A DNA stretch of 64,000 bases from Gammaproteobacteria bacterium. Lineage in GTDB: Bacteria > Pseudomonadota > Gammaproteobacteria > 21-64-14. Position numbers and translations under genes: made by a program. Position 1 is the stretch's first letter, and the number at the start of each line of letters is the position of its first letter. Where the stretch lies: positions 1 through 64,000 of the forward strand of contig JALUXX010000060.1 of the NCBI GenBank assembly GCA_027013145.1, given 5' to 3'. The notes below the pieces were generated by a model. That model ran no database searches, was not told where the DNA came from, and saw nothing but the letters and a program-made list of their open reading frames with translations. Below are positions 19,430-35,215 of the stretch, piece by piece.

Positions 19430-19897
19430 ATGGCCATCCCCCGTGCGAGCGGTCATCGCCAGCGAATTGCGGATGCGCGTGCCAGGACTGCGGGAAAGGG
19501 ATTCGCGGAATGCCCGCGCCGGCCGGCGCGGGGTCATGTTGTGCGGGCCGGTCTGCCGGTTCTGTTGGCCGCCTTGTCGTGGACGTCGATCTTCTGGTCC
19601 GGCGGCGCGCAGGGCGGATCGACCGGCGACGGGGATTCGGGGGAGCGGCTCTATCTGCGCAACTGCGCGGTCTGCCATGGCCCGGAGGGTGAAGGCGCCA
19701 TGCCGGGGGTGCCGGACCTGACCGCGCGTCCGGGGCCCCTGGACCGGCCCGACGACACCCTGGTGCGGCGGGTAAGGGAAGGGATCCGGGCTCCGGATGG
19801 TTCGGTCCTGATGCCGGCGGGCGGCGGCAATGCGTCGCTCACTGCGGCCCAGGTGCGGGCGATTCTCGGTTTCATGCGGCGCAGCGTGCGCAAATGA
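19430..19897 (+). CDS. Monoheme cytochrome c
   Basis: A 155-residue c-type cytochrome. The heme-binding motif CAVCH follows GERLYLRN near residue 80, and the distal methionine is probably in VLMPAGGG. The N-terminus has about 35 basic residues before a hydrophobic stretch (AGLPVLLAALSWTSIFW), which would serve as a signal or membrane anchor. ATG 19430 follows AAAGGAG by about nine bases. It precedes a beta-propeller gene by 34 bases, suggesting a shared transcript and a periplasmic electron-transfer role with unknown partner. Confidence 0.85.
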   Translation: MAIPRASGHRQRIADARARTAGKGFAECPRRPARGHVVRAGLPVLLAALSWTSIFWSGGAQGGSTGDGDSGERLYLRNCAVCHGPEGEGAMPGVPDLTARPGPLDRPDDTLVRRVREGIRAPDGSVLMPAGGGNASLTAAQVRAILGFMRRSVRK

Positions 19898-19931
19898 TTC
19901 GTCAACTCCCACTACTTCGGAGGATGGGGAC

Positions 19932-20936
19932 ATGAACAGGACAGAAAATGGAGCGGCTTTCTTGCGGCTATTGGTGTCGGCGGCCCTGTTGGCGACTGCG
20001 ATGCTGCCCCTGCGGGTGGAGGCCGGGCCGACCGTCTATATCCCGCTCGGGAAGGCCAATGAGGTCATCGCGGTCGATGCCGCCACGAACAGGATCACCG
20101 CGCGCTACCCCGGGGTAAAGAATCCGCACGGCCTGGTGGCGACGCCGGATGGCGAGTACCTGATCGCGGGCAGCCTGGATGAGGTCAGGACCCAGGGCAA
20201 GGACCAGGGCAACAGCTACCTGTATCTGATCCATCCGGAACACGGCCATGTGATGTCCAGGATCAAGGTCAAGGGCTGGTCCCACCATGAGGCGATCACC
20301 CCGGACGGTCGTTACGTGCTGTCCACCCATCCGATGCGAGCGGCGGTCAGTGTCGTGGATCTGCGCACCGATCGCGTCGTGCACGTGATCCGGACCGGAC
20401 CGGTGCCGAACTACACGCTGATTACGCGCGACGGCAGGCGGGCGTATGTCAGCAACGCCGGAAACGGCACCATCAGCGAAATTTCCCTTGGGAACTGGCA
20501 GGTCGCGAGGACGCTCCAGGCGGGACCGGTTCCGGAGCATATGGAATTCTCCCCGGACGAGAAGCGGATCTACGTCGCCAATGTGCGGGCGGGGCGCGTC
20601 TCGGTGGTCGACGTCGCGCGAGGGGACGTCGTGCGGACCTTCGAGGTCGGGCCGGTACTGCACGGTCTGGACATTGGCGATGACGGCAGGACGCTGTTCG
20701 TGACCAGCAAGAAGGCGAACAAGCTGGTGGCCATCGACACGCAGACCGGCCGCCGGCGGGCATTGGACCTTTCCCCGTCGCCGTACCACCTCAACGTGAT
20801 ACACGGCACAGGGAAGCTCTACGTGTCGAGCAGCAAGAAGCCCGTGATCTGGGTGGTCGGACAGAAGACGCTCGAGGTCGAAGGGACGATCCGGCTCCCC
20901 GCGGGCGAAGGGCACCAGATGGCCATCGTGCCCTGA
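19932..20936 (+). CDS. Exported YVTN-type beta-propeller protein
   Basis: A 334-residue protein with a clear signal peptide (hydrophobic LLVSAALLATAMLPL ending near VEAG). It is built of repeated roughly 42-residue YVTN/YncE blades, including VYIPLGKANEVIAVDAATNR, AYVSNAGNGTISEI, IYVANVRAGRVSVVD and LFVTSKKANKLVAID. Seven blades fit the length. Related propellers accompany periplasmic redox proteins such as cytochromes and nitrite-reductase-like enzymes, but no heme or copper ligands are evident here. GGAGGATGGGG precedes ATG 19932. Probable partner: the cytochrome c just upstream. Confidence 0.88.
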   Translation: MNRTENGAAFLRLLVSAALLATAMLPLRVEAGPTVYIPLGKANEVIAVDAATNRITARYPGVKNPHGLVATPDGEYLIAGSLDEVRTQGKDQGNSYLYLIHPEHGHVMSRIKVKGWSHHEAITPDGRYVLSTHPMRAAVSVVDLRTDRVVHVIRTGPVPNYTLITRDGRRAYVSNAGNGTISEISLGNWQVARTLQAGPVPEHMEFSPDEKRIYVANVRAGRVSVVDVARGDVVRTFEVGPVLHGLDIGDDGRTLFVTSKKANKLVAIDTQTGRRRALDLSPSPYHLNVIHGTGKLYVSSSKKPVIWVVGQKTLEVEGTIRLPAGEGHQMAIVP

Positions 20937-21103
20937 GCCGGCCGGCGTTTCACGGAGCCGCGCACGAAGGGTGCGCACTTGCGGTCCAGCCGTCGATACC
21001 GGCGCGAGCGATGTCGGGTTGAGCCACGGAACGCGCGGAAAAGCCGGGCCCTTGTCCGTAGCCGTTTCCCCGACGCTGGCGGTCGGTAAGGGATATTGAC
21101 TGA

Positions 21104-21245
21104 AATGGCGCTTACTTAGTGCCCGCATGGTAAAAAAATGGCCACGGAACCCACCGGCAAAGACACAAGCTTTCCGTGCGTTTCGTGGGTTCCGTGGCTC
21201 AACTCCACGCGGTTTGGAGTGGCCGGAGCTTAAGTAAGTGCCATT
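21104..21245. mobile_element. Nested inverted-repeat (MITE-like) element, 142 bp
   Basis: The outer ends AATGGCGCTTACTTA (21104-21118) and TAAGTAAGTGCCATT (21231-21245) are inverted repeats with one mismatch. Inside, GCCACGGAACCCAC (21141-21154) and GTGGGTTCCGTGGC (21185-21198) form a perfect 14-bp stem. There is no coding capacity. The AT-rich ends and the lack of an open frame fit a non-autonomous transposable element. It fills most of the gap after the beta-propeller gene. Confidence 0.6.
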
Positions 21246-21312
21246 GATATTAGCTGCACACGTAGTTTGCGCCCGAGGGCAGGAGGCGAATGATGAAAAA
21301 CACGGTATATCG

Positions 21313-21558
21313 TTGGCGGCGGTCGGGCATGCGACCAGCCTGTTTCTGGCGGTCACGTTCGTGCTCTGCGTGGGTTTCGACCTGGCGTTTCCGGGGCATG
21401 CGATGTACCGCTCCTGGGCGCCGCTGCTGCCCGGATTCGAATGGCTCAGTTGGAAGGGTTTCTTCATCGGCCTGGTCGAGGCCTACGCGTACGGGTGGTA
21501 CTTCGCGTTGATCTGGGTGCCGCTGTACAAGCTCACGGGTGGTCGGGCACAGTCCTGA
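21313..21558 (+). CDS. DUF5676-type small membrane protein, possible 5' frameshift
   Basis: The 81-residue body starts AAVGHATSLFLAVTFVLCVG and contains PGFEWLSWKGFFIGLVEAYAYGWYFALI, read here in two adjoining parts. It has two TM helices and the WLSW...GLVE...YGWY pattern of DUF5676. A strong AGGAGG with ATGATG (21290/21293) precedes it but is in a different frame. Either translation begins at the TTG at 21313 without a ribosome site, or a one- or two-base indel near 21310 broke the gene. DUF5676 genes often sit by copper or heavy-metal loci. A MITE-like element ends 45 bases upstream of the ATGs. Confidence 0.6.
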   Translation: MAAVGHATSLFLAVTFVLCVGFDLAFPGHAMYRSWAPLLPGFEWLSWKGFFIGLVEAYAYGWYFALIWVPLYKLTGGRAQS

Positions 21559-21612
21559 CGTCGCACGTGGACGTGCGCGCGGTGGGGCATTGAGACTTCC
21601 GGGGCGAAAGCG

Positions 21613-21831
21613 GTGACGGCGACGATCGAGATCTCGGGTGCGGGACCGGCGGGACTCGCCGCCGCGCTTGCGGCGAGACGGGGGGAATGGTTGCGGCGTG
21701 TCTACCGGCCGCGGCTGCGGAAGCGGGTTTGGTATTCCGTGATCGCGGCGCGGGCGCGCAAGGGCCTGCTGCAGCTGTCCGCGGGTTGCGACTGTACGTG
21801 GTGCCGGTGCCGGCGGCAGGAAGGAGCTTGA
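21613..21831 (+). pseudogene. N-terminal remnant of an FAD-dependent oxidoreductase
   Basis: From GTG 21613 the reading is MTATIEISGAGPAGLAAALA, a textbook Rossmann dinucleotide-binding start (GxGxxG) of geranylgeranyl-reductase-like FAD enzymes. After about 25 codons the similarity stops and the frame continues as low-complexity Arg/Cys sequence to 21831. The remaining several hundred residues of such an enzyme are missing, so this is a deletion remnant. Confidence 0.45.
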
Positions 21832-21935
21832 CATTGCACGATGCTGCAAGGTGTAGAGTGGAATCGAATGGAGCGGGAAAGGGTTTCGAGCGGGACGATC
21901 GTTCGCCCGCCGCACGGCGGGATAGGGGGTGGATC

Positions 21936-22298
21936 ATGGAGACGCAAGGGCGATGACAGGACTGGTTGAACCTGGCGCTCGGCGCGTGGCTGTTCTTCAC
22001 GCCGTTCTTCTACGGGTTGAATACCCTCGACGCGGCCGCGTGGAACGCATACGTGCTCGGTACGGCCGTGGTGGTATTCGCCGCGTGGGCGCTGAGCCAG
22101 CCGTCCCGGTGGCCGGAAGGGATCAATCTGGTCCTCGGTGCGTGGCTGTTCTTCGCGCCGTGGCTGCTCGGGTTCACGGCCGTAGCCGCGGCTGCATGGA
22201 ACAGCTGGATCATCGGCTTGGTGGTCGGCGTCGATGCGCTCTGGGCGCTGGCGGCGAAGCGGATCGGGCCGCCGGCAATGCCGGGGCATTCCCACTGA
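21936..22298 (+). pseudogene. SPW-repeat membrane protein with in-frame TGA at codon 7
   Basis: From ATG 21936 the frame reads METQGR-stop-QDWLNLALGAWLFF and continues open to 22298. The body has two SPW-type repeats (LNLALGAWLFFTPFFYG; INLVLGAWLFFAPWLLG), giving a four-helix membrane protein. SPW proteins commonly start with a WQDW-type motif, so the TGA (21954-21956) probably replaces TGG. Translation could restart at the TTG at 21966, but no ribosome site supports that. Either a recent nonsense mutation or readthrough is possible. Confidence 0.6.
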
Positions 22299-22390
22299 CA
22301 GGGAAACGATAAGATCCGGCGGTCGGCCGCACCGTCCCGCGGTCGACCGCTTTTACGTTGATCGTGGTAGACGACCTGCAGGGAGGTGCT

Positions 22391-22876
22391 ATGAATGGGC
22401 TCGGGAGATTTTCCGGCACGCTGGGACTGGTACTGGGACTGACATTGCCACTGGCCCCACTGCATCGGGCCGTAGCCGCGGATGCACCGGCGGGCGCGGC
22501 GAAGCCGCCGCCGGCGGTGGTCTACAAGGATGCGGCCTGCGGCTGCTGCCGGGGCTACGTGAGCTACCTGCGGCGACACGGCTTCCAGGTCAAGACGGTG
22601 AATCTTCCGTACAAACGGCTTAGGCTCTACAAGCGTGAAAACGGCGTTTCGCCCGCGCTGGCGTCGTGCCACACGATGAAGATCGGCGATTACGTCGTCG
22701 AAGGCCACGTACCGGTCGCGGCCGTGCGCAAGCTGCTGGCGGAGCACCCGCTGGTGTGCGGCATCGCACTTCCGGGCATGTGGGCGGGTTCCCCGGGCAT
22801 GGACGGGAGGAAAGCGGCGCCGTTCAAGATCTACTCGTTCGGGTGGGGACCGCCGCGGATATTCATGACGGAGTGA
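22391..22876 (+). CDS. DUF411 putative copper/metal-binding periplasmic protein
   Basis: A 161-residue exported protein: signal peptide to about residue 30 (GLVLGLTLPLAPLHRAVAA), then VVYKDAACGCCRGYVSYLRR with C50, C52 and C53, and LASCHTMKIGDYVVEGHVPV. These are the DUF411 landmarks. DUF411 proteins accompany copper resistance genes and are thought to bind Cu(I). ATG 22391 follows GGGAGG. It lies 62 bases upstream of the molybdoenzyme fusion gene and shares the metal theme of the operon beyond. Confidence 0.88.
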   Translation: MNGLGRFSGTLGLVLGLTLPLAPLHRAVAADAPAGAAKPPPAVVYKDAACGCCRGYVSYLRRHGFQVKTVNLPYKRLRLYKRENGVSPALASCHTMKIGDYVVEGHVPVAAVRKLLAEHPLVCGIALPGMWAGSPGMDGRKAAPFKIYSFGWGPPRIFMTE

Positions 22877-22938: not shown

Positions 22939-25900
22939 GTGGCAGCGAGCGGCGGCGCGACGGATGGGGCGTGGAGAAAGGGAGTTTGCGGAGTATGCCC
23001 CGCGGGTTGCTGGGTGGAGGTTCGCATCGAGGGCGGCAGGCTCACGGACATCCGGGCGGATCCGGACCATCCCCTGGGGGCGCTGTGCCGGCGCGGGCGG
23101 CACGCCCCCGAGATCGTCTACGCGGAGCATCGCCTGCGCCATCCGTTGCGACGCGCCGCTGGTCCGAAAGGCGCGTTCGACTTCCAGACCACCACCTGGG
23201 ACGCCGCCTACGACGAGATCGCGCAGCGCCTGGAGCGGATCAAAGCGGAGTCGGGCCCGGAGGCGGTGGCCGTCTACACCGGGCGGGGGGCGTTCGAACT
23301 GTCCCTCTGTGATCTGTTCCAGCCTCGTGGCGTGGCGGTATCGTCGGCGTCGAACGTCCTCTTTCCATTCGGTTCCCCCAACACGATGGGGGTTGGTGCG
23401 CTGTGCTACGTCTCGTTCGCGATGATCGCCCCGCACGTCACGATGGGCAGGATGCTCGTCGACATGTACGCGGACATGGAGAATGCGGAGCTGCTGGTCG
23501 TGTGGGGCGCCAATCCGGCGACGGACTCACCACCGATCGACATGCGCCGCCTGGAGGCGGCGGCGGGGCGAGGGGCGCAGGTGGTCGTCATCGATCCCCG
23601 CAGAACCGAAACTGTGGAGCGATGCGGGGCCGAGTGGATTCCGATCCGGCCCGGCACCGACGGTGCGTTGGCGCTGTCGATGATCGGAGTGTTGATCGAC
23701 GAAGGGATTCTGGACGAGGAGTTCGCGGAGAACTGGTGCCGGGGCTTCGACGAACTGGCGCAGTATGTGCAGCACTTTCCGCCCGAGGCCGCGGAACGGA
23801 TCACCGGGGTACCGGCGCGGACGGTGCGCACCCTGGCGCGACGCATCGGCACGGCGCGCGGCGCCTGCCCCGTCATGTACACGGGTCTCGAGTATTCCGA
23901 CAGCGGTGTTCAGGCGATCCGCGCGGTGCTGACGCTGTTCGCGCTGGCCGGCCAACTCGACGTCCCCGGCGGCATCGGGTTGGCCATGCGCGGGTCGCAC
24001 TTCCCCATCAACCGATCGTGCAATCAGCCGAACCCGGATCTGGCGCGGGCGGCGGGGCGCGGACGCTTTCCGCTCTACAGCCATTACCGCGGCGAGTCGC
24101 ACGCCACGGCGCTGGTCGATGCGGTGCTGAAGGGGCGCCCGTATCCGATCCGGGCGCTGATCATTCACGGGGCATCGCTGCTGACATCGTGGCCGCAGCC
24201 CGCCGTTTGGCGCCGGGTGCTGGAGAAGCTCGACTTCGTGGTCTGCATCGATCGGCAGCGGACCGCGGATGCCGCATTCGCCGATCTCGTGCTCCCCGCT
24301 ACCACGATGTTCGAGATCGATTCGTACATGACGTACGGGCCGATCTTCCGGCTGCGGGAGAAGCTGATCGAGCCGCTGGGCGAGGCGCGCAACGACTATC
24401 GCATCATGGCGCAACTCGCCGCCCGGCTCGGCTACGGGGATCTCTACCCGCAGACGGAGGAGGAGATGCTCCGGTTCGTGCTGCAGGGATCCGGATTCAC
24501 CCTCGAGGAGGTACGTGCGGCGGGTGGAATCGTGCGCATACCGGCGCCGTTCACGGAGTATCGTAAGTGGCAGAAGGGCGGGCTGCGGGCCGACGGCAGA
24601 GCGGGATTCGAGACGCCCAGCGGAAAGTTCGAAATCCGCTCGTCGCTGCTCGAAGAATACGGCTACGAGCCGCTGCCCCGGTACACGGAGCCCCGCGAGG
24701 GGCCGCTGGCCGATCCCGCGCTCGCCCGTGAATTCTCCTTGGTCTTCAATTCCGGCGCGCGGCCGGACACGGATTTCCGCTCCCAGCATCACGGTATTCC
24801 CGGGCTGGTCCGGGATCGGCCCGAGCCGATGGTCGAGATCAATGAACGGGACGCGGCCGCGCGTGGGATCCGCGACGGTGACCTCGTGGAGGTGCGCACC
24901 CCCAGAGGGGCGGTGCCGTTCAGGGCGCGGGTGTCCAGCGCTATCGTAGCGGGTGCGGTCGATTGCGACATGGGCGGCGGAACCCCCGTGGGGCCGGCGG
25001 CGTGGCGGGACTGGAACGTGAATGCCCTCACCGACCTGGACCACTACGATCCGGTTTCCGGGTTTCCGGTGTACAAGGCGCTGCTGTGCGAGGTCGCGAG
25101 GCTCGCCGGGGGTGTCCCGTCCGGGGCGGAGCCGCGGCGCGGGGTGCTGCGTGAGCGGCGGCGGAGGCACGCCGCCGCGGGGGCGACCGGGGCTCGGCGG
25201 CGCCGCACCGTGTACCTGGACAACAACGCGACCACGCCGGTCGATCCGCTCGTACGCGAGGCGATGCTCCCCTGGCTGGAAGCGGGCTTCGGGAATCCCT
25301 CGAGCCTCCACCGCCGGGGCCGGGAGGCCTACGCGGCGGTGGAGGCGGCGCGGCGCAGCGTGGCGCGCCTGATCAACGCGCACCCGCGGCGGGTGATCTT
25401 TACCAGCGGCGGCTCCGAGTCGAACAACTTGGCGATCAAGGGCGCGGTCTTCGCGCGGTCGGGGCGCGGCGGACACTTGGTGACGACGCATGTCGAGCAC
25501 CCCTCGGTGCTCGGTGCCTTCGCCTTCCTGGAGGGGCTCGGCTATACGGTTACCCGCCTGCCGGTCGACCGTCTGGGGCGGGTCGACCCCGGGGACCTGG
25601 AGGCGGTGCTGCGCGACGATACGATCCTCGTGTCGATCATGACCGCCAACAACGAGGTCGGTACGATTCAGCCCGTTCGCGAGTGCTGCCGGGTGGTGCA
25701 TCGCAAGGGAATCCTGTTCCACACCGACGCGGTCCAGGCGGTCGGCAAGATCCCGGTGGATGTGGCGGATCTCGAGGTCGACCTGTTCAGCCTCTCGGCG
25801 CACAAATTCCACGGCCCCAAGGGAATCGGCGCCCTTTACGTACGCAAGGGGGTCGCTCTGTCTCCGCTGGTGCACGGCGGGGGCCAGGAAGGCGGTCTGC

Positions 25901-26361
25901 GCGGCGGTACGCAGAACGTCGCCGGCATCGCCGGCCTCGGAGCCGCCGCCGAACAGGCCGCCGTGACGCTGGGGGAGTTCGAACGGGTGCGCGGGCTGCG
26001 GGACCGACTCGAGGTGCAGATCCGCGGGCTCGTGCGCGGTGCGGTCCTGAACGGACATCCCGGGGAGCGCCTGCCCAACACCGTGAACATGATCCTGCCG
26101 GGCCTGCGGGGGGAGTCGCTGGTGGTCGCGCTCGATCAGAACGGTGTGGCGGTCTCGTCGGGTTCGGCCTGCAAATCGGGATCGCCGGATCCGACCCATG
26201 TGCTGCTCGCCATGGGGGTGGGGGTGCAGGATGCGCACTGCTCCCTGCGTTTTTCGTTGTCCCGGGAGACGACGGAGCAGGACGTCGAGGCGGCGGTGGC
26301 GGCGTTGCGCAGGGTGCTGGCGCAGGCGCAGGCCACGGTGAGGTTCCTGCCGTGCAAGTGA
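22939..26361 (+). CDS. Molybdopterin oxidoreductase-cysteine desulfurase fusion protein
   Basis: A single 1140-residue frame encodes two enzymes. Residues about 14-740 form a DMSO-reductase-superfamily subunit. An N-terminal [4Fe-4S] site is C17-x2-C20-x3-C24-x25-C50. LLVVWGANPATDSPP lies in the cofactor domain, and C156 in VGALCYVSF is a candidate Mo ligand. The C-terminal MGD-binding domain contains ARGIRDGDLVEVRTPRG. There is no Tat signal, so it is cytoplasmic. After a basic linker, residues about 758-1140 form a complete group I cysteine desulfurase (NifS/IscS type): VYLDNNATTPVD, PLP lysine K956 in SAHKFHGPKG, catalytic C1078 in SSGSACKSGS. GTG 22939 follows GGAG. IscS-derived sulfur is known to activate formate-dehydrogenase Mo via FdhD, which makes a self-sulfurating enzyme plausible. 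Substrate is unknown. Confidence 0.9.
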   Translation: MAASGGATDGAWRKGVCGVCPAGCWVEVRIEGGRLTDIRADPDHPLGALCRRGRHAPEIVYAEHRLRHPLRRAAGPKGAFDFQTTTWDAAYDEIAQRLERIKAESGPEAVAVYTGRGAFELSLCDLFQPRGVAVSSASNVLFPFGSPNTMGVGALCYVSFAMIAPHVTMGRMLVDMYADMENAELLVVWGANPATDSPPIDMRRLEAAAGRGAQVVVIDPRRTETVERCGAEWIPIRPGTDGALALSMIGVLIDEGILDEEFAENWCRGFDELAQYVQHFPPEAAERITGVPARTVRTLARRIGTARGACPVMYTGLEYSDSGVQAIRAVLTLFALAGQLDVPGGIGLAMRGSHFPINRSCNQPNPDLARAAGRGRFPLYSHYRGESHATALVDAVLKGRPYPIRALIIHGASLLTSWPQPAVWRRVLEKLDFVVCIDRQRTADAAFADLVLPATTMFEIDSYMTYGPIFRLREKLIEPLGEARNDYRIMAQLAARLGYGDLYPQTEEEMLRFVLQGSGFTLEEVRAAGGIVRIPAPFTEYRKWQKGGLRADGRAGFETPSGKFEIRSSLLEEYGYEPLPRYTEPREGPLADPALAREFSLVFNSGARPDTDFRSQHHGIPGLVRDRPEPMVEINERDAAARGIRDGDLVEVRTPRGAVPFRARVSSAIVAGAVDCDMGGGTPVGPAAWRDWNVNALTDLDHYDPVSGFPVYKALLCEVARLAGGVPSGAEPRRGVLRERRRRHAAAGATGARRRRTVYLDNNATTPVDPLVREAMLPWLEAGFGNPSSLHRRGREAYAAVEAARRSVARLINAHPRRVIFTSGGSESNNLAIKGAVFARSGRGGHLVTTHVEHPSVLGAFAFLEGLGYTVTRLPVDRLGRVDPGDLEAVLRDDTILVSIMTANNEVGTIQPVRECCRVVHRKGILFHTDAVQAVGKIPVDVADLEVDLFSLSAHKFHGPKGIGALYVRKGVALSPLVHGGGQEGGLRGGTQNVAGIAGLGAAAEQAAVTLGEFERVRGLRDRLEVQIRGLVRGAVLNGHPGERLPNTVNMILPGLRGESLVVALDQNGVAVSSGSACKSGSPDPTHVLLAMGVGVQDAHCSLRFSLSRETTEQDVEAAVAALRRVLAQAQATVRFLPCK

Positions 26362-26461
26362 CGCGACGCCACGGGATTCGCGCCCGCCGGCTCCCGCCGA
26401 GGGGAGGGTGCCGGGATCCGGGGGCGCTCCTCAAGTCAAGCCCCCGACCACGGATCGGCTG

Positions 26462-27775
26462 ATGAGCACGGTGCTCGTCCTCTGTCCCTCGCATCGGGAC
26501 TATCGGGAGCTCGCGGCGCTGGAGGCGGCGCGGCGTCACCGCATCCTGTTTCACGAGTACGCCAGTATCGAACTCGAGCGCATGGTGGCGCCGTCGCCGG
26601 AGCTGGAACCGGTGCGAGATGCGCTCGAGGAGGTCGATTGCATACTTGCCCGGTTTTCCGCAGGCGGACTCGATGCGGTGGTGAGCACCGACGACTACCC
26701 GGGCAGCACGCTCGCGAGTATCGTGGCCGAACGTCTCGGGCTTCCCGGGGTCCCGGCGCGGGCCAACCTGCTGTGCCAGCACAAGTACCGCGCGCGGCTG
26801 CTGCAACGGGCGATCGTGCCCGAGGCGGTCCCGGAGTTTGCGCTTGCGGACGGGGATGCCCCCGTGGTACCGGGGTTTCCGCTGTTCCTCAAGCCGGTCA
26901 AGTCGTTCTTCTCCGTCGGCGCGTGTCGCGTCGAGGAGGCCTGCGCGTATGCCGGCGCCCTGGCCCGCGCGCGCCTGCCGGAGGTCTTCTTCGATCCCCT
27001 GCGGCGGCTGTTCGAACACTGCACGGGGGAGGCGTTCGGCCCCGGCCGCGTGCTGGCGGAGGAACTGCTCGAGGGGGTGCAGGTGACCGTGGAGGGGTAT
27101 GTCTTCGGCGGCCATGCGCACGTGTTCGGAATCGTCGACTCGGTCCTGTTCCCGGGCAGCCTGGCGTTCGAGCGCTTCGAGTATCCCTCGAGCCTTCCAC
27201 CGGCGGTACAGGCGCGGATGACGGACATCGCCGCGCGCGTGATGACGGGCATCGGCTTCGACGGCGGGCTGTTCAACATCGAGATGATGTATGATCCAAA
27301 GCACGACCGGATTCACATCATCGAGATCAATCCGCGCATGGCCTCGCAATTCGCCGACCTCTACGAAAAGGTGGACGGCTTCAATCCCTACGAGCTGCTG
27401 ATCGACCTCGCGCTCGGAAGGGCACCGCGCCCGCGCCGCGGGCGGGGGCGTCACCGGCACGCGGCGAGCTGCGTGCTGCGGACCTTCGAGGATTGCCGGG
27501 TCGCGCGCGTGCCCTCGGAGGAAGACGTGGCCGCCGTCCTCGAACGGCACCCGGACGCACGCGTCGAGATCCTGGCGGAACCGGGGCGGCGGCTGTCCGA
27601 GGAGATGCAGGACGGTGAGAGTTACCGCTACGGGCTGGTGAGTCTTGGCGGCGCGGACCGGGAGGACATCCTGCGCGCGTTTGCGGCCTGCGAGCGGCGT
27701 CTCGGGTTCGTGCTGGAACCGGCGGGAGTTCGCGCCGACGGGCCGAGCGCGGGACTCGGAGGCGTGGCGGTTTGA
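26462..27775 (+). CDS. ATP-grasp ligase-like enzyme
   Basis: A 437-residue ATP-grasp protein of the carboxylate-amine/thiol ligase superfamily. An N-terminal Rossmann-like domain is followed by the lysine-containing strand FPLFLKPVKSFFSVGACR and LAEELLEGVQVTVEGYVFGG. The metal-binding signature HIIEINPRMASQFADLY (E-x-N-P-R) follows. The C-terminal 100 residues are less conserved. Substrates cannot be predicted. Its stop overlaps the nuoA-like start by four bases, so it is translationally coupled to the complex-I-like operon; no characterised complex I has such a partner to my knowledge. It may modify a peptide or small molecule used by the complex. Confidence 0.82.
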   Translation: MSTVLVLCPSHRDYRELAALEAARRHRILFHEYASIELERMVAPSPELEPVRDALEEVDCILARFSAGGLDAVVSTDDYPGSTLASIVAERLGLPGVPARANLLCQHKYRARLLQRAIVPEAVPEFALADGDAPVVPGFPLFLKPVKSFFSVGACRVEEACAYAGALARARLPEVFFDPLRRLFEHCTGEAFGPGRVLAEELLEGVQVTVEGYVFGGHAHVFGIVDSVLFPGSLAFERFEYPSSLPPAVQARMTDIAARVMTGIGFDGGLFNIEMMYDPKHDRIHIIEINPRMASQFADLYEKVDGFNPYELLIDLALGRAPRPRRGRGRHRHAASCVLRTFEDCRVARVPSEEDVAAVLERHPDARVEILAEPGRRLSEEMQDGESYRYGLVSLGGADREDILRAFAACERRLGFVLEPAGVRADGPSAGLGGVAV

Positions 27776-28134
27776 GTACATTGGCGCAATACGCGCTGCT
27801 TCTGGGCCTGGCGGTGGGGTCGGCCGGGGCGGCGCTCGCGCTGTACGGCCTGGCGCGGGCCGTCGGGCGTGAGCGGCGGGAACCCGGAAAGGACGTGCCG
27901 GCGACCGCCGGGCGGCTGTCGCCGAAGCCGGTCTGGGTGCGCTATCACGCACGTTACTACGGCTACGCCCTGCTGTTTCTCGCCTTCGACATGGAGATGG
28001 CCTTCATGTATCCGTGGGCGGTGGTCTACCGGCACGAAGGGCTGGTGGCGTTGCTGGACATGGGGGTGTTCCTCGCCATTCTGTTTCTCGGTCTGCTCTA
28101 TGGCTGGAGCCGCGGCGCGTTACGGAGGCAGTGA
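27772..28134 (+). CDS. nuoA: NADH dehydrogenase-like subunit A
   Basis: A 120-residue NuoA homologue with three TM helices. The third-quarter motif YYGYALLFLAFDMEMAFMYP keeps the conserved FDxE acidic pair of complex I subunit A (E. coli FDVEALF). TTG 27772 overlaps the preceding ATP-grasp stop, with GGAGG eight to nine bases upstream. In complex I this subunit, with H, J and K, forms the base where the quinone module meets the membrane arm. It is the first of eight nuo-type genes here. Confidence 0.88.
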   Translation: MSTLAQYALLLGLAVGSAGAALALYGLARAVGRERREPGKDVPATAGRLSPKPVWVRYHARYYGYALLFLAFDMEMAFMYPWAVVYRHEGLVALLDMGVFLAILFLGLLYGWSRGALRRQ

Positions 28135-30192
28135 GTGATCCACGGTGCACGCCGGGGCGCGTGGTCCGGCCTGCGTCGGCTGACCGCGCGCGCCCAGGCA
28201 CAGATGCTCGCGGCGATCGTGGTGCCCGGGCCCGAGGTCGCGGCGGCCCTGGGTCTCGACCTGGCCGGCGCCGGCCTGTTGCCCGCCGCCTCCCCGCGGC
28301 ATGCGAGCGTGCTGGTCGTCGCAGGCGCGCTGCCGGCGCAGCTGCGGGAGGCGGCCGCGGTTCTGTATGCGCAGATGATGCGACCGCGGGCGGTGATGGC
28401 CCTCGGGGCGGGCACGCTCGCGCCGCTGCCGGGGGCGGACGTCGTGGCGGAGTTGTCGCAGCCGGCACTGCTCGACGCCGTTCGGCGCCTGCGCCGGGCG
28501 ATCGCCGGGGGAGCCTTCCGCCGTGACGCGGCCGGCTTCGACGCGCCGGTGCTGCGCAGCCGGACCGAGTATGTCTGCCCGATGCACCCGGAGGTCGTGC
28601 GCGACGAACCGGGCTCCTGCCCCAAGTGCGGCATGACGCTGGTCCCACGCGAGGCGCAGGACGAGGGCGGGCATGCGCCGGACGCGGTCGATGCCTCGAC
28701 GGGCATGGAGATGGAAGCGGGGCGCGGCGGGGGGGAGAGCGCCTATACCTGCCCGATGCACCCCGAAGTGGTGCGCGACGAACCGGGCTCCTGCCCCAAG
28801 TGCGGCATGACGCTGGTCCCACGCGAGGCGCAGGACGAGGGCGGGCATGCGCCGGACGCGGTCGATGCCTCGACGGGCATGGAGATGGAAGCGGGGCGCG
28901 GCGGGGGGGAGAGCGCCTATACCTGCCCGATGCACCCCGAAGTGGTGCGCGACGAACCGGGCTCCTGCCCCAAGTGCGGCATGACGCTGGTCCCGCGTGC
29001 CGCCGCCGCGAAGGACGCACCTGAAGCGGGGCACGCCGCAGACGCAGCATCGGAGGCGGCGGGCGGGCGACACGCGCCGATGGATCCCTCCGGGGCGGAG
29101 CATTCGGCGGCGGCGCATACCGGAATGGACCATGGGGCGATGGATCACGTTGCGGGGCATTCCACCTTCATGTCGATGGTGGCGGTGACGCGCGACCTGC
29201 CGCGCAGCCCCGACGGCCTGCCCATGGACTGGATCGAGGTGCCGTTCGGGCCGCTCTTCCCCGGCCTGCCCGGGGGCCTGTCGCTCGTGCTCACGCTCGA
29301 CGGCGACACCGTGGCGGGCGCGGCGGCGCAGGCCCCGGTGGCGGCCGCCGCCGCGGCGGTCGCGGATGCCGGCGGCCGCGGGCTGCCCGCCGCCGAATTC
29401 GCCCGCCGGCTCGGCGCCATGGATCCGCTGGCCCCGGTCGCGTATCGGCTGCTCGCGCGCCGCGCACTGGAGTGCGCCGCAGGGGTCGAACCCGATTCGC
29501 GCGGTGCCCGCGCCCGCGCGGGCGCGGCGGAGCGGGAGCGCCTGGCGAGTCACCTCGCGTGGCTGGCTGTGTTCCTGGGCCGCCTCGGCCTGGAGGTCCA
29601 CGCGCGGCGGAGTTGGGGTCTGGCGGCGTCGATGCGGGGCGCGGATGCGGCGCGCATCGCGGGGCTGGCGGCGGCGGTGCGTGTACTGGTGCGGGGCGTC
29701 AGGCGCACCCCGCTGCTGGAAACGCGGTTGGCCGGCATCGGCCGGCTGGCGGCGGACGGGCGCCTGCGCGGACCGGTCGCGCGCGCCGCGGGGGTTGCGG
29801 CGGACGGGCGCGTCGGGGACCCGGTGTACGGTGCGCTCGGATTCGAGCCGGTCACGCGGCCGGACGGCGACGCCCGCGCGCGTCTGGCCGTGCGTCTCGA
29901 TGAGATCGAGCAGAGCCTGCGGTTGGTCCGGGCGGCGGGCGTGCTGGACGACTCCGGCGTGCCCGGCATCGGCGCCGCGTCGGGTACCGGCGAAGCGCTG
30001 GTCGAGACGCCGCGCGGCGGTGCGCGCCTGGCGGTGAGCGTGGAACGCGGCCGGGTGACGGCGGCGCGGCTCGACACCCCCTCGACCGTTCTCCTGGAAC
30101 GCATCGGGTCCCTGGTCGCGCAGTGCGAGCTGGGCGACGCGCTGACGGCGGTCGCCTCGCTGGACCTCTCGCCGTGGGAGGTCGTGGCGTGA
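28135..30192 (+). CDS. Fused NuoB-like / triple heavy-metal-binding / NuoD-like subunit
   Basis: This 685-residue protein stands where nuoB, nuoC and nuoD would be. Residues 1-130 match NuoB after its cysteine pair (AASPRHASVLVVAG; LYAQMMRPRAVMALGAG) but contain no cysteine, so no N2 cluster. Three CPMHPEVVRDEPGSCPKCGM domains begin at C148, C206 and C264, as in copper efflux proteins. A Met/His linker (HTGMDHGAMDHVAGHSTFM) follows. Residues about 365-685 follow NuoD: GPLFPGLPGGLSLVLTLDGD against GPQHPATHGALRLVLQLDGE, with both His of HPxxHG lost; then LASHLAWLAVFLGRLG, a VETPRGG stretch, and SLDLSPWEVV in place of the SIDxxxxDxDR end. GTG 28135 follows GGAGG. It is probably a structural, metal-responsive replacement of the redox module. 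Confidence 0.88.
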   Translation: MIHGARRGAWSGLRRLTARAQAQMLAAIVVPGPEVAAALGLDLAGAGLLPAASPRHASVLVVAGALPAQLREAAAVLYAQMMRPRAVMALGAGTLAPLPGADVVAELSQPALLDAVRRLRRAIAGGAFRRDAAGFDAPVLRSRTEYVCPMHPEVVRDEPGSCPKCGMTLVPREAQDEGGHAPDAVDASTGMEMEAGRGGGESAYTCPMHPEVVRDEPGSCPKCGMTLVPREAQDEGGHAPDAVDASTGMEMEAGRGGGESAYTCPMHPEVVRDEPGSCPKCGMTLVPRAAAAKDAPEAGHAADAASEAAGGRHAPMDPSGAEHSAAAHTGMDHGAMDHVAGHSTFMSMVAVTRDLPRSPDGLPMDWIEVPFGPLFPGLPGGLSLVLTLDGDTVAGAAAQAPVAAAAAAVADAGGRGLPAAEFARRLGAMDPLAPVAYRLLARRALECAAGVEPDSRGARARAGAAERERLASHLAWLAVFLGRLGLEVHARRSWGLAASMRGADAARIAGLAAAVRVLVRGVRRTPLLETRLAGIGRLAADGRLRGPVARAAGVAADGRVGDPVYGALGFEPVTRPDGDARARLAVRLDEIEQSLRLVRAAGVLDDSGVPGIGAASGTGEALVETPRGGARLAVSVERGRVTAARLDTPSTVLLERIGSLVAQCELGDALTAVASLDLSPWEVVA
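28576..28994 (+). repeat. 174-bp in-frame tandem repeat of metal-binding domains
   Basis: Three copies of a 58-codon unit (CPMH...CPKCGM plus linker) start at 28576, 28750 and 28924. Copies are almost identical at DNA level, including the linker GGCATGGAGATGGAAGCGGG, which indicates recent duplication or ongoing gene conversion. The first copy differs at a few bases near its start and the third diverges after its last CGGCATGACGCTGGTCCC. Confidence 0.9.
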
Positions 30193-31085
30193 CCACGGTC
30201 GCCGTCCTCGCGGCGCTCCTGGCCGGCGCCTATGCCGTCGCCGTGCTCGAGGCGTGGGCACGGACCGGGCGCATGCGCCCGGGCGGGCCGCTGTTTGCGG
30301 CCGCGGCCCTGATCGGGCGCGAGTCGTTCGTGCCGCGCAAGCCCGATCGTCTGTTCTTCGAGGCCGCACCGGTGCTGCTGCTGGTCGCAGCGGTCCTCGC
30401 CGCGGCGGTGCTGCCGTGGGCGCCGGGGCTGGTGATCGTCGATCTCGCCACCGGTGCCCTGTTCGTCAACGCCGCCTTCGCCTACGTGCTGGTGGCGCTG
30501 ATCATGGCCGGCTGGGGACCGGACGGGGCGTACGCGATGGTCGGCGGCTGGCGCTTCCTTGGACAGCTCATCGGCTATTCCATGCTTATCGTCATGCCCA
30601 TCACCGCCGTCGCCATGCGCGCGGAGTCGCTGGTCACCACCGTCATCGTGGATTCGCAGGCCGGGGTCTGGAACATCGTCTACCAACCCCTGGGATTCGT
30701 CCTGTTCTTCATCGCCGCGATGGCGCTCGCATTCCTGCCGCCCTTCGATCTGCCGACGGCCCCGGGCGAGCTGGCCGGGGGCGTGGAGGCGGAGTACGCG
30801 GGCCGGCGGCTGGCGGTCCTGCGGCTGGCGCGCGCGTTGCTGGTCGTGGCGGTGGCGCTCGCGACGACCGTGTTCTACCTCGGGGGATGGCGCGGGCCGT
30901 GGCTCCCGCCCTGGGCGTGGACGGGGCTCAAGACGCTGGCGGTGGCGGCGGCGATGTTCGCGCTCGGCGGCCGCCTGCCGCGGGTGCGCGAGGCGCACTT
31001 CCTGGCGTGGTGCTGGAAGCTCGGCATCCCCCTGGCGCTGCTGAACATCTTCGTCGTCGGCCTCCTCGTCCTGGCGGTGCCGTGA
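30189..31085 (+). CDS. nuoH: NADH dehydrogenase-like subunit H
   Basis: A 298-residue, multi-helix NuoH homologue, somewhat shorter than typical (about 325). VLIMAGWGPDGAYAMVGGWR-like and PPFDLPTAPGELAGGVEAEY segments correspond to GWaSnsKYallGalR and PFDLPEAEsELVaGyn.EY. Two hallmark pieces have changed. The SYE motif after GxxR is GYS, losing its Glu, and the AETxRxPFDLPEAE loop is ALAFLPPFDLPTAPGE, losing AE, R and the second acid. These line the quinone cavity in complex I, so quinone chemistry is doubtful. GTG 30189 overlaps the upstream stop (GTGA). Confidence 0.85.
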   Translation: MTTVAVLAALLAGAYAVAVLEAWARTGRMRPGGPLFAAAALIGRESFVPRKPDRLFFEAAPVLLLVAAVLAAAVLPWAPGLVIVDLATGALFVNAAFAYVLVALIMAGWGPDGAYAMVGGWRFLGQLIGYSMLIVMPITAVAMRAESLVTTVIVDSQAGVWNIVYQPLGFVLFFIAAMALAFLPPFDLPTAPGELAGGVEAEYAGRRLAVLRLARALLVVAVALATTVFYLGGWRGPWLPPWAWTGLKTLAVAAAMFALGGRLPRVREAHFLAWCWKLGIPLALLNIFVVGLLVLAVP

Positions 31086-31603
31086 TGCACGCGCAGACCT
31101 TCTTCATCGCCTTCTTCGGCCTCGCCGCAGTGTGGTTCGGCGTCGCGGTGTTCCGCACCTCGTCGATGGTGCGCTCGGCGCTGGCGCTGCTGTTCTCGCA
31201 GACGGCGATCGGCGCCATGTTCCTCGCCATGCAGACGGAGTTCCTCGGCGTCCTGCAGATCATGATGATGGCCACGGAGATGAGCATCATGGCGATCTTC
31301 ATGGTGATGTACATGATGGATCCCGGTGGGCTGGGTGCGATGGAGATGACGCACCAGAAGCGGTTTTCGATCGCCGCCGGCGCGATCGGCGGCGGCGCGG
31401 CGCTGGCGGTGGCGGTGCTGACCCCTTGGGGTCCGGTGGTCGCGCAGGCGCCCGCGGCGGCGCAGCAGACGCGCGCGCTCGGGCTCGAACTGCTGGGGCG
31501 TTCGATGCTGGTGTTCGAGACCGCCGGGGTGACGATCCTCACGGCGATGATCGCGGCGACGGCGGTCGCGGTACGCCGGCGCGAAGGCAAGGCGGCACGA
31601 TGA
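31085..31603 (+). CDS. nuoJ: NADH dehydrogenase-like subunit J
   Basis: A 172-residue NuoJ homologue with five predicted TM helices. The third helix region TEFLGVLQIMMMATEMSIMA, followed by IFMVMYMM, aligns with the NuoJ segment around the pi-bulge (E. coli ADFIAAVQVIVYAGAIMVLF), although the YAG is replaced by ATE. The start ATG 31085 overlaps the nuoH stop by one base and the end overlaps nuoK by four. In complex I the J helix transmits conformational change to the antiporter subunits. Confidence 0.83.
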   Translation: MHAQTFFIAFFGLAAVWFGVAVFRTSSMVRSALALLFSQTAIGAMFLAMQTEFLGVLQIMMMATEMSIMAIFMVMYMMDPGGLGAMEMTHQKRFSIAAGAIGGGAALAVAVLTPWGPVVAQAPAAAQQTRALGLELLGRSMLVFETAGVTILTAMIAATAVAVRRREGKAAR

Positions 31604-31911
31604 CGGCGGCACTGATCGCAGCACTCGTCACCGGGGCGGCCCTGTTCGGCGTTGGCCTCTACGGGGCGCTGTCGCAGACCAATCTGGTCATGATCATGAT
31701 GGGCGTGGAGCTGATCCTGGCGGGGGCACTCGTCAATCTGGCGGCGTTCTGGCGCTTCCTCCACCCGGGTGCGTACGCCGGACAGATGTTCGTGCTGATC
31801 GTGATGACGGTGATGGCGCTGGAGATGGCGGTGGGCTTCGGCGTGGCGACTGCGCGCTTTCGGGCGAAGGGCTCGGTGGAGATGGAAGAGGCCGGGGAGC
31901 TGAAGGGGTGA
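31600..31911 (+). CDS. nuoK: NADH dehydrogenase-like subunit K
   Basis: A 103-residue, three-helix NuoK homologue. Both intramembrane glutamates needed for proton transfer in E. coli NuoK (E36 and E72) have counterparts, one in LVMIMMGVELILAGALVNL and one in VMTVMALEMAVGFGVA. The start overlaps nuoJ (ATGA). Retention of these residues argues for a working ion path. Confidence 0.9.
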   Translation: MTAALIAALVTGAALFGVGLYGALSQTNLVMIMMGVELILAGALVNLAAFWRFLHPGAYAGQMFVLIVMTVMALEMAVGFGVATARFRAKGSVEMEEAGELKG

Positions 31912-33725
31912 ATCCGATCGTCCCCGCCGTCCTCGGCCCGCTCGCCGCGGCCGTCGCAATCCCGCTGCTGCGCCGGGCGCCCGCCGCACCGGCCCTGCTC
32001 GGGGCGATCGTCGCCCTCGCCGCGGGCGGCGCGCTGGCGGTCGGGATCGCGCACGGGACACGCGCCGAGCTGCTGCTGCCGGGTTTGCCGGGATTGCCGT
32101 TGCGCCTGATCGCCACGCCGCTGACCGCACTGCTCTCGCTGGTGGTCGCCGGCGTCGGCACCCTGGTGCTCATCTACGCCGTGGGTTACATGAAGGGGGA
32201 TCCCGAGCGGGTACGCTTTTTCGCCACGATGTCCTTTTTCATCGCGGCGATGCAGGCCTTGGTGCTGGCGGGCGACTGGATCTCGCTGCTCGCCGCCTGG
32301 GAACTCATCGGGCTGAGCAGCTATCTGCTCATCGGTTTCTGGCATGCGCGCCCCGGGGTCGGGGCCGCGGCGCTGCGCGCCTTCCTCTACACGCGCAGCG
32401 CCGACCTGGGCCTGTACACGGCGGCCTTTCTGTTCATCGCGCATACCGGCACCGGTGTCCTCCCCTCCGCGCCGCTGAGCGGGCCGGCGGCGACCTTGGC
32501 GGGGCTGCTCCTGCTGCTGGCGGCGATGGGCAAGTCGGCGCAGACGCCGCTGCAGGATTGGCTGCAGCGCGCGATGGCGGGGCCGACGCCGGTCTCGGCG
32601 CTCCTGCACTCGGCGACCCTGGTGGCCGCCGGGGCGATCCTGCTGATCCGGGCGGAGCCGCTCCTCACCCCGGGCGCGCGGCTCGCGGTCGGGGTGGTCG
32701 GCGGCGTCACCACGGTGGTCGCGGGACTCATCGCCCTGGGCGAGCGCGACCTCAAGCGGCTGCTCGCCGCCTCGACCTCCAGCCAGTACGGTCTGATGCT
32801 GGTGGCGGTCGGTGCGGGCGCCCCGCTGGCGGCGCTCCTGCATCTGATCGCGCACGCGGCGATCAAGAGTTCGCTCTTCCTCGGCGCCGGGGTGTTCCAG
32901 CACGCGCGCGGCGGGACCGGCTTCGCACGGCTGCGCGGTGCAGGGCGCGCACATCCGCGGGTGTTTCTCGGCTTCACGGTGGCGGGGCTCGCGCTCGCCG
33001 GGGTCCCGCCCTTGAGCGGGTTCTTCACCAAGGACGCGGTGATCGCCGCGGCCCTTGCCGGCCGGCACGCCCCGCTGCTCGCCCCGCTCGCGCTCGCGGG
33101 GACGCTGCTCACGGGCGCGTACGTCGCGCGCGCCCTCCGTCTGCTGTGGCGCGGCGCGGGCGAGGAGCACCGCGTCCCCGGGCTCGGCTGGATGGGGGCG
33201 GGCTTCGCCGGACTGGCGGTCGCGGCGGCGGGGCTGGGGGCGGCCGTCGGGCCGATCGCCGCGTGGGCGGGCGGGCCGTTGCCGGTTGCTTCCGGCGCGG
33301 GGGTGTTCGGCCTTGCCGCGGCATTCGCGGGACTCGCGCTGGGCTGGTTCGTCCCCGGGGCGCGCCTGCTCGGGCCGCTGCGCCGCGCCGCGGAGGGCGG
33401 GTTCGCGCTCGCCGGCGGGCTCGACTTCTGGGTCGCGCGCCCGGCGCTGGCGCTCGCCCGCGGCTGCGACCGGCTCGAACAGGCACTGTATGCGGGGGTC
33501 CTCGGGATCGGCCGTCTCGGTCTGACGCTGGCGCGCTCGGTGCGCCGCGGCGACGAGCGCGGCATCGACGGGTTGATCTTCGCCCTGGCGCGGGGGGCCC
33601 GCACGCTGGGCTCGCGCGCCCGCGCGCTGCAGACGGGATTGGTCCATCGCGAGCTGGCGCTCGCCGCGGCGGGGGCGGCCGTCCTCCTCGCGGCCCTGGC
33701 CGTTGGGCTGGCGGGCTTTCGATAG
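31908..33725 (+). CDS. nuoL: NADH dehydrogenase-like antiporter subunit L
   Basis: A 605-residue Mrp-antiporter-type subunit. LLAAWELIGLSSYLLIGFWH holds the key TM5 glutamate. GKSAQTPLQDWLQRAMAGPT, continuing PVSALLHSAT, holds the TM7 lysine, and HAAIKSSLFLGAG and SGFFTKDAVI hold later ones. The C-terminal part includes a long amphipathic stretch and a final TM helix, matching the NuoL lateral helix arrangement. GTG 31908 overlaps the nuoK stop. It is not the two-component DabB type, because all the other membrane-arm subunits are adjacent. Confidence 0.9.
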   Translation: MNPIVPAVLGPLAAAVAIPLLRRAPAAPALLGAIVALAAGGALAVGIAHGTRAELLLPGLPGLPLRLIATPLTALLSLVVAGVGTLVLIYAVGYMKGDPERVRFFATMSFFIAAMQALVLAGDWISLLAAWELIGLSSYLLIGFWHARPGVGAAALRAFLYTRSADLGLYTAAFLFIAHTGTGVLPSAPLSGPAATLAGLLLLLAAMGKSAQTPLQDWLQRAMAGPTPVSALLHSATLVAAGAILLIRAEPLLTPGARLAVGVVGGVTTVVAGLIALGERDLKRLLAASTSSQYGLMLVAVGAGAPLAALLHLIAHAAIKSSLFLGAGVFQHARGGTGFARLRGAGRAHPRVFLGFTVAGLALAGVPPLSGFFTKDAVIAAALAGRHAPLLAPLALAGTLLTGAYVARALRLLWRGAGEEHRVPGLGWMGAGFAGLAVAAAGLGAAVGPIAAWAGGPLPVASGAGVFGLAAAFAGLALGWFVPGARLLGPLRRAAEGGFALAGGLDFWVARPALALARGCDRLEQALYAGVLGIGRLGLTLARSVRRGDERGIDGLIFALARGARTLGSRARALQTGLVHRELALAAAGAAVLLAALAVGLAGFR

Positions 33726-33734
33726 GAGGGAAGG

Positions 33735-35201
33735 GTGCCGATCGTCACCGTTACGCTGTTCACTCCGCTCCTCGGCGCCCTCCTGGTGCTGTCCGGGGGA
33801 CTGCATTCCGCACGCCGTGCGCACGGGATCGGTATCGCGACCACGGCGGTCACGTTGCTGGGCGCCTTGGCGATGTGGGCGCGGGGTGTGGGTCCGTCGG
33901 GGTTCTCGCAGGTCGAGCAATTCGCCTGGATCCCGTCGATCGGTGCCGCCTACCGCGTCGGGGTGGACGGGATCAGTCTGCCGCTGGTGCTGCTCACCGC
34001 ACTGCTGTTTCTGCTCGCCGCGGTCTACTCGGCGCGAATCCGCGAGCGCGCGCCCGCCTACGTGATCCTGATGCTGCTCCTGGAGACCGCCTCCATCGGG
34101 ACCTTCACGGCCCTCGACGGCCTGCTGTTCTACGTATTCTTCGAGGTGTCGCTCGTCTCGATGTATTTCATGATCGCCGGCTGGGGTCACGAGGACCGGC
34201 AGCGGGCGGCGCTGATGTTCTTCCTCTACACCTTGCTGGGGAGTCTTCCGCTGCTGCTGGCGATCCTGGGGCTGTATCTGGGGAGCAGCCCGCATACCTT
34301 CGATATGCGGGTCTGGATTGCCCACCCGCCGCTCTCGGGGACCGCTGCCACCCTTGCCTTGATCGCGATGCTGGTGACGTTCGCTGTGAAGATCCCGATC
34401 TTCCCGGTGCATACCTGGTTGCCGGCGGCGCACGTGGAGGCGCCGACCGCCGGGAGCGTGATTCTGGCCGGGGTGATGCTGAAGTTCGGCACCTACGGGC
34501 TCGTGCGGTTCGCGCTGCAGATGACTCCCGAGGCGTTCCGTGCGGCGGGGGTCGTGATCCTGATCCTCGGTGTGGTGAGCGCCCTGTACGGGGCCTTCGC
34601 GGCCCTCGCGCAGACCGACCTGAAGCGGCTCGTCGCCTACACATCGGTCAATCACATGGGCTACGTCGTCGTCGCAGTGGCCGTGGCCGCGCTCGCGAGC
34701 GGTCCGGCGGTCCGTGCCCTGGCGCTCGACGGGGCGGTGTTGCAGATGGTCAGCCACGGGCTTGTGACGGGCGCGCTGTTCCTGCTCGTCGGGATGATCC
34801 AGGATCGGGCGCACACGCGCGAGACGGCGGCCTTCGGGGGGCTGCTGCAGGTGGTTCCGGGGCTAGGCTGGGCCTTCGTGCTCGCCGCCTTCGCCTCCCT
34901 GGGCCTGCCGGGGTTGGCGCATTTCCCGGCCGAGTTCCAGATCTTTCTCGCGACCCTGCGGGTCTCGCCGCCGGCGGTCGTGGTCGTGATCGGCATCGTC
35001 GTCACCGCCGCGCTGTACCTGCGGGCGATCGGGCGTACCTTCTTCGGTGAACTGCCGGCGCGCTGGGCGGCGATGGCCGACCTGAACCTGCGCGAGTGGC
35101 TGGCGGTCGCGCCGCTGCTGGTGCTCACGGTCGTCGTCGGGGTCGCCCCGTTCTGGGTCCTGGACGTGATTCACACGACCACCGCCTGGTTGCACCTGTA
35201 G
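33735..35201 (+). CDS. nuoM: NADH dehydrogenase-like antiporter subunit M
   Basis: A 488-residue antiporter-like subunit. FFEVSLVSMYFMIAGWGHED contains the conserved TM5 Glu. VKIPIFPVHTWLPAAHVEAP holds the TM7 Lys and the discontinuous helix, followed by LAGVMLKFGTYGLVRF. KRLVAYTSVNHMGYVV is the usual TM11-12 region. GTG 33735 is preceded by AGGAGG. Length and motif order match NuoM rather than L or N. Confidence 0.92.
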   Translation: MPIVTVTLFTPLLGALLVLSGGLHSARRAHGIGIATTAVTLLGALAMWARGVGPSGFSQVEQFAWIPSIGAAYRVGVDGISLPLVLLTALLFLLAAVYSARIRERAPAYVILMLLLETASIGTFTALDGLLFYVFFEVSLVSMYFMIAGWGHEDRQRAALMFFLYTLLGSLPLLLAILGLYLGSSPHTFDMRVWIAHPPLSGTAATLALIAMLVTFAVKIPIFPVHTWLPAAHVEAPTAGSVILAGVMLKFGTYGLVRFALQMTPEAFRAAGVVILILGVVSALYGAFAALAQTDLKRLVAYTSVNHMGYVVVAVAVAALASGPAVRALALDGAVLQMVSHGLVTGALFLLVGMIQDRAHTRETAAFGGLLQVVPGLGWAFVLAAFASLGLPGLAHFPAEFQIFLATLRVSPPAVVVVIGIVVTAALYLRAIGRTFFGELPARWAAMADLNLREWLAVAPLLVLTVVVGVAPFWVLDVIHTTTAWLHL

Positions 35202-35215
35202 GGGCGCGCGACGGG

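Follow-up and report, generated by a model that had tools for sequence, protein, structure and literature searches.

Metallopterin-dependent ergothioneine synthase and related systems

The metallopterin-dependent ergothioneine synthase (MES) was first characterised in 2022 from Caldithrix abyssi (Beliaeva and Seebeck, 2022; PMC9516567). The C. abyssi enzyme (CaMES) comprises an acetylene-hydratase-like metallopterin module and a functional cysteine desulfurase in one protein and produces the antioxidant ergothioneine from trimethylhistidine and cysteine without oxygen; four MES of different organisms made ergothioneine in E. coli (PMC9516567). When the desulfurase, the relay cysteine or the Mo ligand of CaMES is inactivated by mutation, synthesis falls approximately 2000-fold or almost to nothing: K952A, C1074S and C1135S each abolish it and C153S is inactive, while C1097 has a two-fold effect only (PMC9516567). 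Co-expression of desulfurase-dead and Mo-site-dead variants yielded no activity, so that sulfur transfer must be intramolecular (PMC9516567). Furthermore, the Mo module of desulfurase-dead CaMES still exchanges sulfur between ergothioneine and trimethylhistidine, which means that the role of the desulfurase is to provide sulfur as a substrate, beyond any activation of the Mo site; how the metal reacts was put forward as a proposal only (PMC9516567). The nearest solved Mo/W relative of CaMES is acetylene hydratase, and similar heterocycle chemistry may be wider according to the authors, who described anaerobes as the only species to encode MES (PMC9516567). MES was found in genomes without other enzymes that sulfurise N-alpha-trimethylhistidine (TMH) (PMC9516567); this absence is a criterion of its discovery, not a property of the enzyme.

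EanB and EgtB share the substrate TMH and the final product with MES, but they are unrelated to it, EanB being a rhodanese-like protein that uses polysulfide and EgtB an O2-dependent non-heme iron sulfoxide synthase. Acetylene hydratase (2e7z) and the bis-MGD enzymes of the DMSO-reductase superfamily share the Mo/W module, with its [4Fe-4S] cluster, bis-MGD and Cys ligand; unlike MES, however, they have no desulfurase and form no C-S bond. When IscS/NifS and FdhD act on formate dehydrogenase, cysteine-derived sulfur reaches a Mo centre, as in MES, but this is a one-off maturation via a separate carrier, whereas an MES homologue consumes sulfur in every turnover along one chain (PMC9516567).

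Architecture of the fused gene

The window analysed here is a stretch of 64,000 nucleotides from a gammaproteobacterial genome, in which a first-pass annotation had noticed a molybdoenzyme fused in one frame to a cysteine desulfurase. This reading was borne out: positions 22939-26361 on the + strand form a single open frame of 1140 codons with no internal stop and a GTG start codon, the latter not being certain. The [4Fe-4S] domain is followed by the bis-MGD oxidoreductase, a linker of approximately 30 residues and a complete NifS-type cysteine desulfurase, and all four Pfam domains of the 1140-aa protein (Molybdop_Fe4S4, Molybdopterin, Molydop_binding, and Aminotran_5) exceed their curated cut-offs. 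The features are as follows.

22939..26361, + strand: putative MES, 1140 aa; 60.6% identity to the Caldithrix abyssi MAG homologue over 1129 aligned residues
22972..23121, + strand: [4Fe-4S] domain, residues 12-61, ligands C17, C20, C24, and C50 (Pfam PF04879 Molybdop_Fe4S4)
23131..24423, + strand: bis-MGD oxidoreductase core, residues 65-495 (Pfam PF00384 Molybdopterin, 131 bits)
23404..23406, + strand: C156, predicted Mo/W ligand, followed by Y157; both invariant in 80 aligned sequences
24760..25080, + strand: molybdopterin dinucleotide-binding domain, residues 608-714 (Pfam PF01568 Molydop_binding)
25111..25203, + strand: interdomain linker, residues 725-755, sequence unconserved (26% identity to congener G001)
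25210..26334, + strand: group I (NifS/IscS-type) cysteine desulfurase, residues 758-1132 (PF00266, 264 bits; Aminotran_5 at 758-1118)
25804..25806, + strand: K956, PLP lysine, in all sequences that are neither truncated nor masked at this point
26170..26172, + strand: C1078, persulfide cysteine (alignment of 80; mapped to CaMES C1074)
26239..26241, + strand: C1101 (alignment of 80; mapped to CaMES C1097)
26335..26358, + strand: C-terminal tail TVRFLPCK with relay cysteine C1139, found in 70 of the 70 sequences reaching that point

The PLP lysine, within SAHKFHGPKG, and the catalytic cysteine, within SSGSACKSGS, are present where they had been claimed, and both active sites are intact. Among solved structures, the Mo/W module matches acetylene hydratase (2e7z) best and thiosulfate reductase next, and the C-terminal part matches IscS/NifS cysteine desulfurases; on the NifS model TIGR03402, the desulfurase part scores 486.5 bits, below the cut-off of 530.75. 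A tail cysteine of the C1139 type is absent from the other NifS-like protein of the same genome (contig C16).

Conservation of the fusion and its unfused relatives

The host genome (3.28 Mb, 99.88% complete) has a same-genus relative, "Bacterium BMS3Bbin13" (G001, contig BDTW01000056), which encodes the full-length fusion at 77% identity and without a stop. A suspected indel in the linker, at 25100-25210, was thus not found. The two proteins are 80% identical over the Mo module and 74% over the desulfurase, and identity falls to the 26% listed above in the linker. Nucleotide differences favour third codon positions in both modules and not in the linker, a pattern that two domains under selection with an unconstrained linker between them should produce. 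The fusion also occurs at 69% identity in a genome from another family of the same class (G149).

The Mo-module alignment served to scan 84,980 species genomes for homologues, and the best 80 loci were kept, some of whose frames are interrupted by contig ends. In 79 of these 80 loci the desulfurase follows the Mo module in the same frame and at the same spacing, so the possibility that homologues would always be encoded by two separate genes did not hold; in the one remaining locus (L066), the frame is broken within the Mo module. In another locus (L138) there is a frameshift inside the desulfurase. The 80 loci span Calditrichota, KSB1, Gemmatimonadota, Chloroflexota, Acidobacteriota, Planctomycetota, Bdellovibrionota, Actinomycetota, Pseudomonadota, and others, and MES-like fusions in so many phyla widen the known range of MES. 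The Fe-S cysteines and the Mo-ligand cysteine are invariant across the 80 aligned sequences, and K956, C1078, and C1139 are kept wherever the aligned sequence is complete. The fusion protein is therefore genuine and well conserved, and an assembly chimera is ruled out because the fusion recurs in independent genomes. One fusion (L120) lies on a contig labelled as a Thaumarchaeota archaeon MAG, and either an archaeal origin or a binning error is possible.

Unfused molybdopterin oxidoreductases of the same class are 31-36% identical to the Mo module of MES (L052-L057), and in a quick tree a branch with SH-aLRT 99 separates these six relatives from the MES sequences. No desulfurase or EgtD gene was found near them in the six loci fetched, and for this reason they do not look like two-gene versions of MES. 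In the gammaproteobacterial genome G127, an MES Mo module with 74% identity (L051, G127:C48, 1-1690), cut by the contig start, turns into unrelated sequence after about residue 717, and no matching desulfurase domain was found in the assembly; this gene could be a misassembly or a broken gene and was left out of the counts. A search of viral contigs gave no match.

Assignment to the MES family and a proposed mechanism

A homologue from a C. abyssi MAG (L130) is exactly 1136 aa long, the published length of CaMES, and has C14, C17, C21, C48, C153, K952, C1074, C1097, and C1135 all at the published numbers. Pairwise alignment places the Fe-S ligands C14/C17/C21/C48 of CaMES at C17/C20/C24/C50 of the window protein and the Mo/W ligand C153 at C156; the desulfurase sites K952, C1074, C1097, and C1135 correspond to K956, C1078, C1101, and C1139. 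These nine residues are invariant or nearly so across the 79 other loci. The window protein thus resembles CaMES in its near-identical length (1136 versus 1140 aa), in the nine published residues and in the order of its two modules, with the [4Fe-4S]/bis-MGD module at the N-terminus and the cysteine desulfurase at the C-terminus of one chain. It has the four Fe-S cysteines, the Mo/W cysteine ligand, the PLP lysine, and the persulfide cysteine, together with a C-terminal relay cysteine (C1139), which is peculiar to the desulfurases of MES. Acetylene hydratase is likewise the nearest solved Mo/W relative, and EgtD is encoded in the genome, as with CaMES. The gene adds a gammaproteobacterial member to the MES family. 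The statement in the first-pass annotation that no characterised example was known is out of date, since MES was characterised in 2022 (PMC9516567), and a seemingly unprecedented enzyme thereby gains a characterised family and leaves the list of the unexplained.

Judged from sequence, the window protein is very probably an MES that acts in the following manner, its sharing the function of CaMES being inferred from identity and residue conservation. EgtD (contig C11) would trimethylate histidine to give TMH. The C-terminal PLP desulfurase (K956) would draw sulfur from L-cysteine to form a persulfide on C1078, and the tail cysteine C1139 of the same chain would pass this sulfur on to the bis-MGD Mo/W centre, which has C156 as its ligand. 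A sulfido group on the metal would then insert sulfur at the imidazole C2 of TMH, yielding ergothioneine with no O2. In such a scheme sulfur would serve as a substrate for TMH, consumed with each catalytic cycle and passed on inside a single chain. The earlier suggestion that the Mo centre is sulfurated in cis matches in essence the mechanism of CaMES (PMC9516567), but the sulfur is destined for TMH as a substrate and not for a one-off activation.

Linkage to EgtD

An all-against-all comparison of the genes around the loci revealed a single recurrent neighbour of the fusion, identified as the histidine N-alpha-methyltransferase EgtD, an enzyme of the ergothioneine pathway; on TIGR03438 (cut-off 290.9), one member reached 373.6 bits. 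The egtD gene lies near the fusion in 33 of the 80 loci, mostly at a distance of no more than approximately 100 bp, and either before or after it. Of 50 fusion-bearing genomes tested, 45 encode EgtD, and incompleteness is a possible reason for its not being seen in the other five. All four gammaproteobacterial MES genomes (that of the window, G001, G149, and G127) contain it. In the genome of the window, EgtD is encoded at C11:150251-151159, scores 348 bits on TIGR03438 against the same cut-off of 290.9, and matches solved EgtD structures along its length. Unlike the CaMES gene, the window gene is not adjacent to egtD; thus, the link between MES and EgtD in this genome rests on genome content and homology. 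An egtB-like gene beside egtD offers an alternative possible reason for the presence of EgtD in this genome.

Alternative functions

An MES homologue might sulfurate, or selenate, a heterocycle other than TMH. The authors of the CaMES study themselves suggested a wider heterocycle chemistry (PMC9516567), the window gene stands apart from egtD, and the EgtB/SenA-like protein of the same genome could serve the ergothioneine branch. On the other hand, the overall identity to the Caldithrix protein is approximately 61% with a strongly conserved Mo module, EgtD accompanies MES in 4 of 4 gammaproteobacterial genomes, and the congener G001 has lost egtB while retaining egtD and MES. We consider a substrate other than TMH very improbable.

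In a second alternative, which builds on the first-pass annotation, the protein would be a formate dehydrogenase-like molybdoenzyme whose own desulfurase takes over the part of FdhD by sulfurating, and so activating, the Mo cofactor in cis, or else mends the Fe-S cluster. The protein does belong to the DMSO-reductase superfamily and gives weak matches to models of the formate dehydrogenase alpha subunit. FdhD (PF02634) had no match in the 99.9%-complete genome of the window (G000), a control search giving matches in 8 of 14 genomes, and searches of G001, G149, and G127, the other three gammaproteobacterial genomes with a family member, likewise did not find it. However, FdhD is also absent from several genomes that contain only unfused relatives, and its absence is therefore not tied to the fusion. 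Moreover, formate dehydrogenases have His after the Cys or Sec of the metal site, whereas C156 is followed by Y157, with Tyr at this position in 80 of the 80 aligned sequences; the score on TIGR01591 (Fdh-alpha) is 272.8 bits, less than half of the cut-off of 666.25; and the recurrent neighbour is EgtD. Replacement of FdhD by the fused desulfurase was rejected. The activity of the Mo module in desulfurase-dead CaMES excludes a purely activating role there (PMC9516567), and the sulfuration is not a repair of the Fe-S cluster either. The formate dehydrogenase-like reading is scarcely conceivable.

Oxygen, EgtB and the range of MES

The description of MES as an enzyme of anaerobes only (PMC9516567) stands against the heme-copper oxidase genes found here and counts against the assignment to MES. 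In contrast to the CaMES host, the bacterium that carries the window gene is gammaproteobacterial and encodes several heme-copper oxidases as well as a cluster of egtB-like, egtC, and egtD genes. Its genome gives eight matches to the COX1 family, four of them above 390 bits, although this family includes NO reductases too and a match does not prove aerobic growth. Genes of the heme-copper oxidase family are present in 36 of the 50 MES genomes, most of which are MAGs.

The egtB-like and egtC genes are both next to egtD (L155, G000:C11, 7243-10271). The best curated matches of the egtB-like protein are SenA (288 bits) and EgtB (263 bits), both under the cut-offs, and its solved relatives are EgtB and SenA; as far as such similarity can tell, the product of the cluster could be ergothioneine or a related sulfur or selenium compound. 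An EgtB/SenA-like gene adjoining egtD departs from the setting in which MES was discovered, whereas G001 is without such a gene. A full EgtB (561 bits) adjoins egtD in G149, and EgtB exceeds the curated cut-off in 6 of the 50 MES genomes, including Thiorhodococcus minor, a Thiodiazotropha, and a Bdellovibrionales.

At the egtB position of G001, only a 36-residue remnant is left (L156, G001:C52, 5646-5750), 69% identical to residues 347-382 of the copy in the window's genome. Around it, egtC and egtD are intact and the far flank is conserved; MES is kept, and no other EgtB match was found in the G001 genome. This arrangement looks like a recent loss of egtB alongside a retained MES, and suggests that MES in facultative bacteria is an O2-independent partner of, or replacement for, EgtB. 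The broader proposal, to which we give an even chance, is that MES is not restricted to strict anaerobes but acts in facultative bacteria as an oxygen-independent twin of EgtB, feeding the product of EgtD into ergothioneine under anoxic conditions, and that it can replace EgtB altogether, as in G001. The occurrence of MES beside oxygen-using respiration and oxygen-dependent ergothioneine genes is a modest surprise and a modest ecological extension. A cultured strain with genes for both MES and EgtB, Thiorhodococcus minor DSM 11518, makes it possible to test what ergothioneine does as oxygen changes.

Genes flanking the fusion

Upstream of the fusion, at 19830-22876 on the + strand, the window encodes a YncE-like beta-propeller, a DUF5676 two-helix membrane protein, an SPW repeat protein, and a DUF411 protein. 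An ATP-grasp gene (26408-27775) lies directly downstream of the MES gene and is followed, up to 36592 on the + strand, by a complex I-like membrane cluster (NuoA-, H-, J-, K-, L-, M-, and N-like). An operonic link between the MES gene and the complex I-like genes was rejected as a functional clue because the two are on opposite strands in G001 and the arrangement occurs in no other locus. The gene at 28135-30192 encodes three heavy-metal-binding HMBD repeats and a partial NuoD-like (Complex1_49kDa) domain, and its product has a homologue in G001 (52%). The cluster at 26408-36592 may constitute an unusual complex I-related machine.
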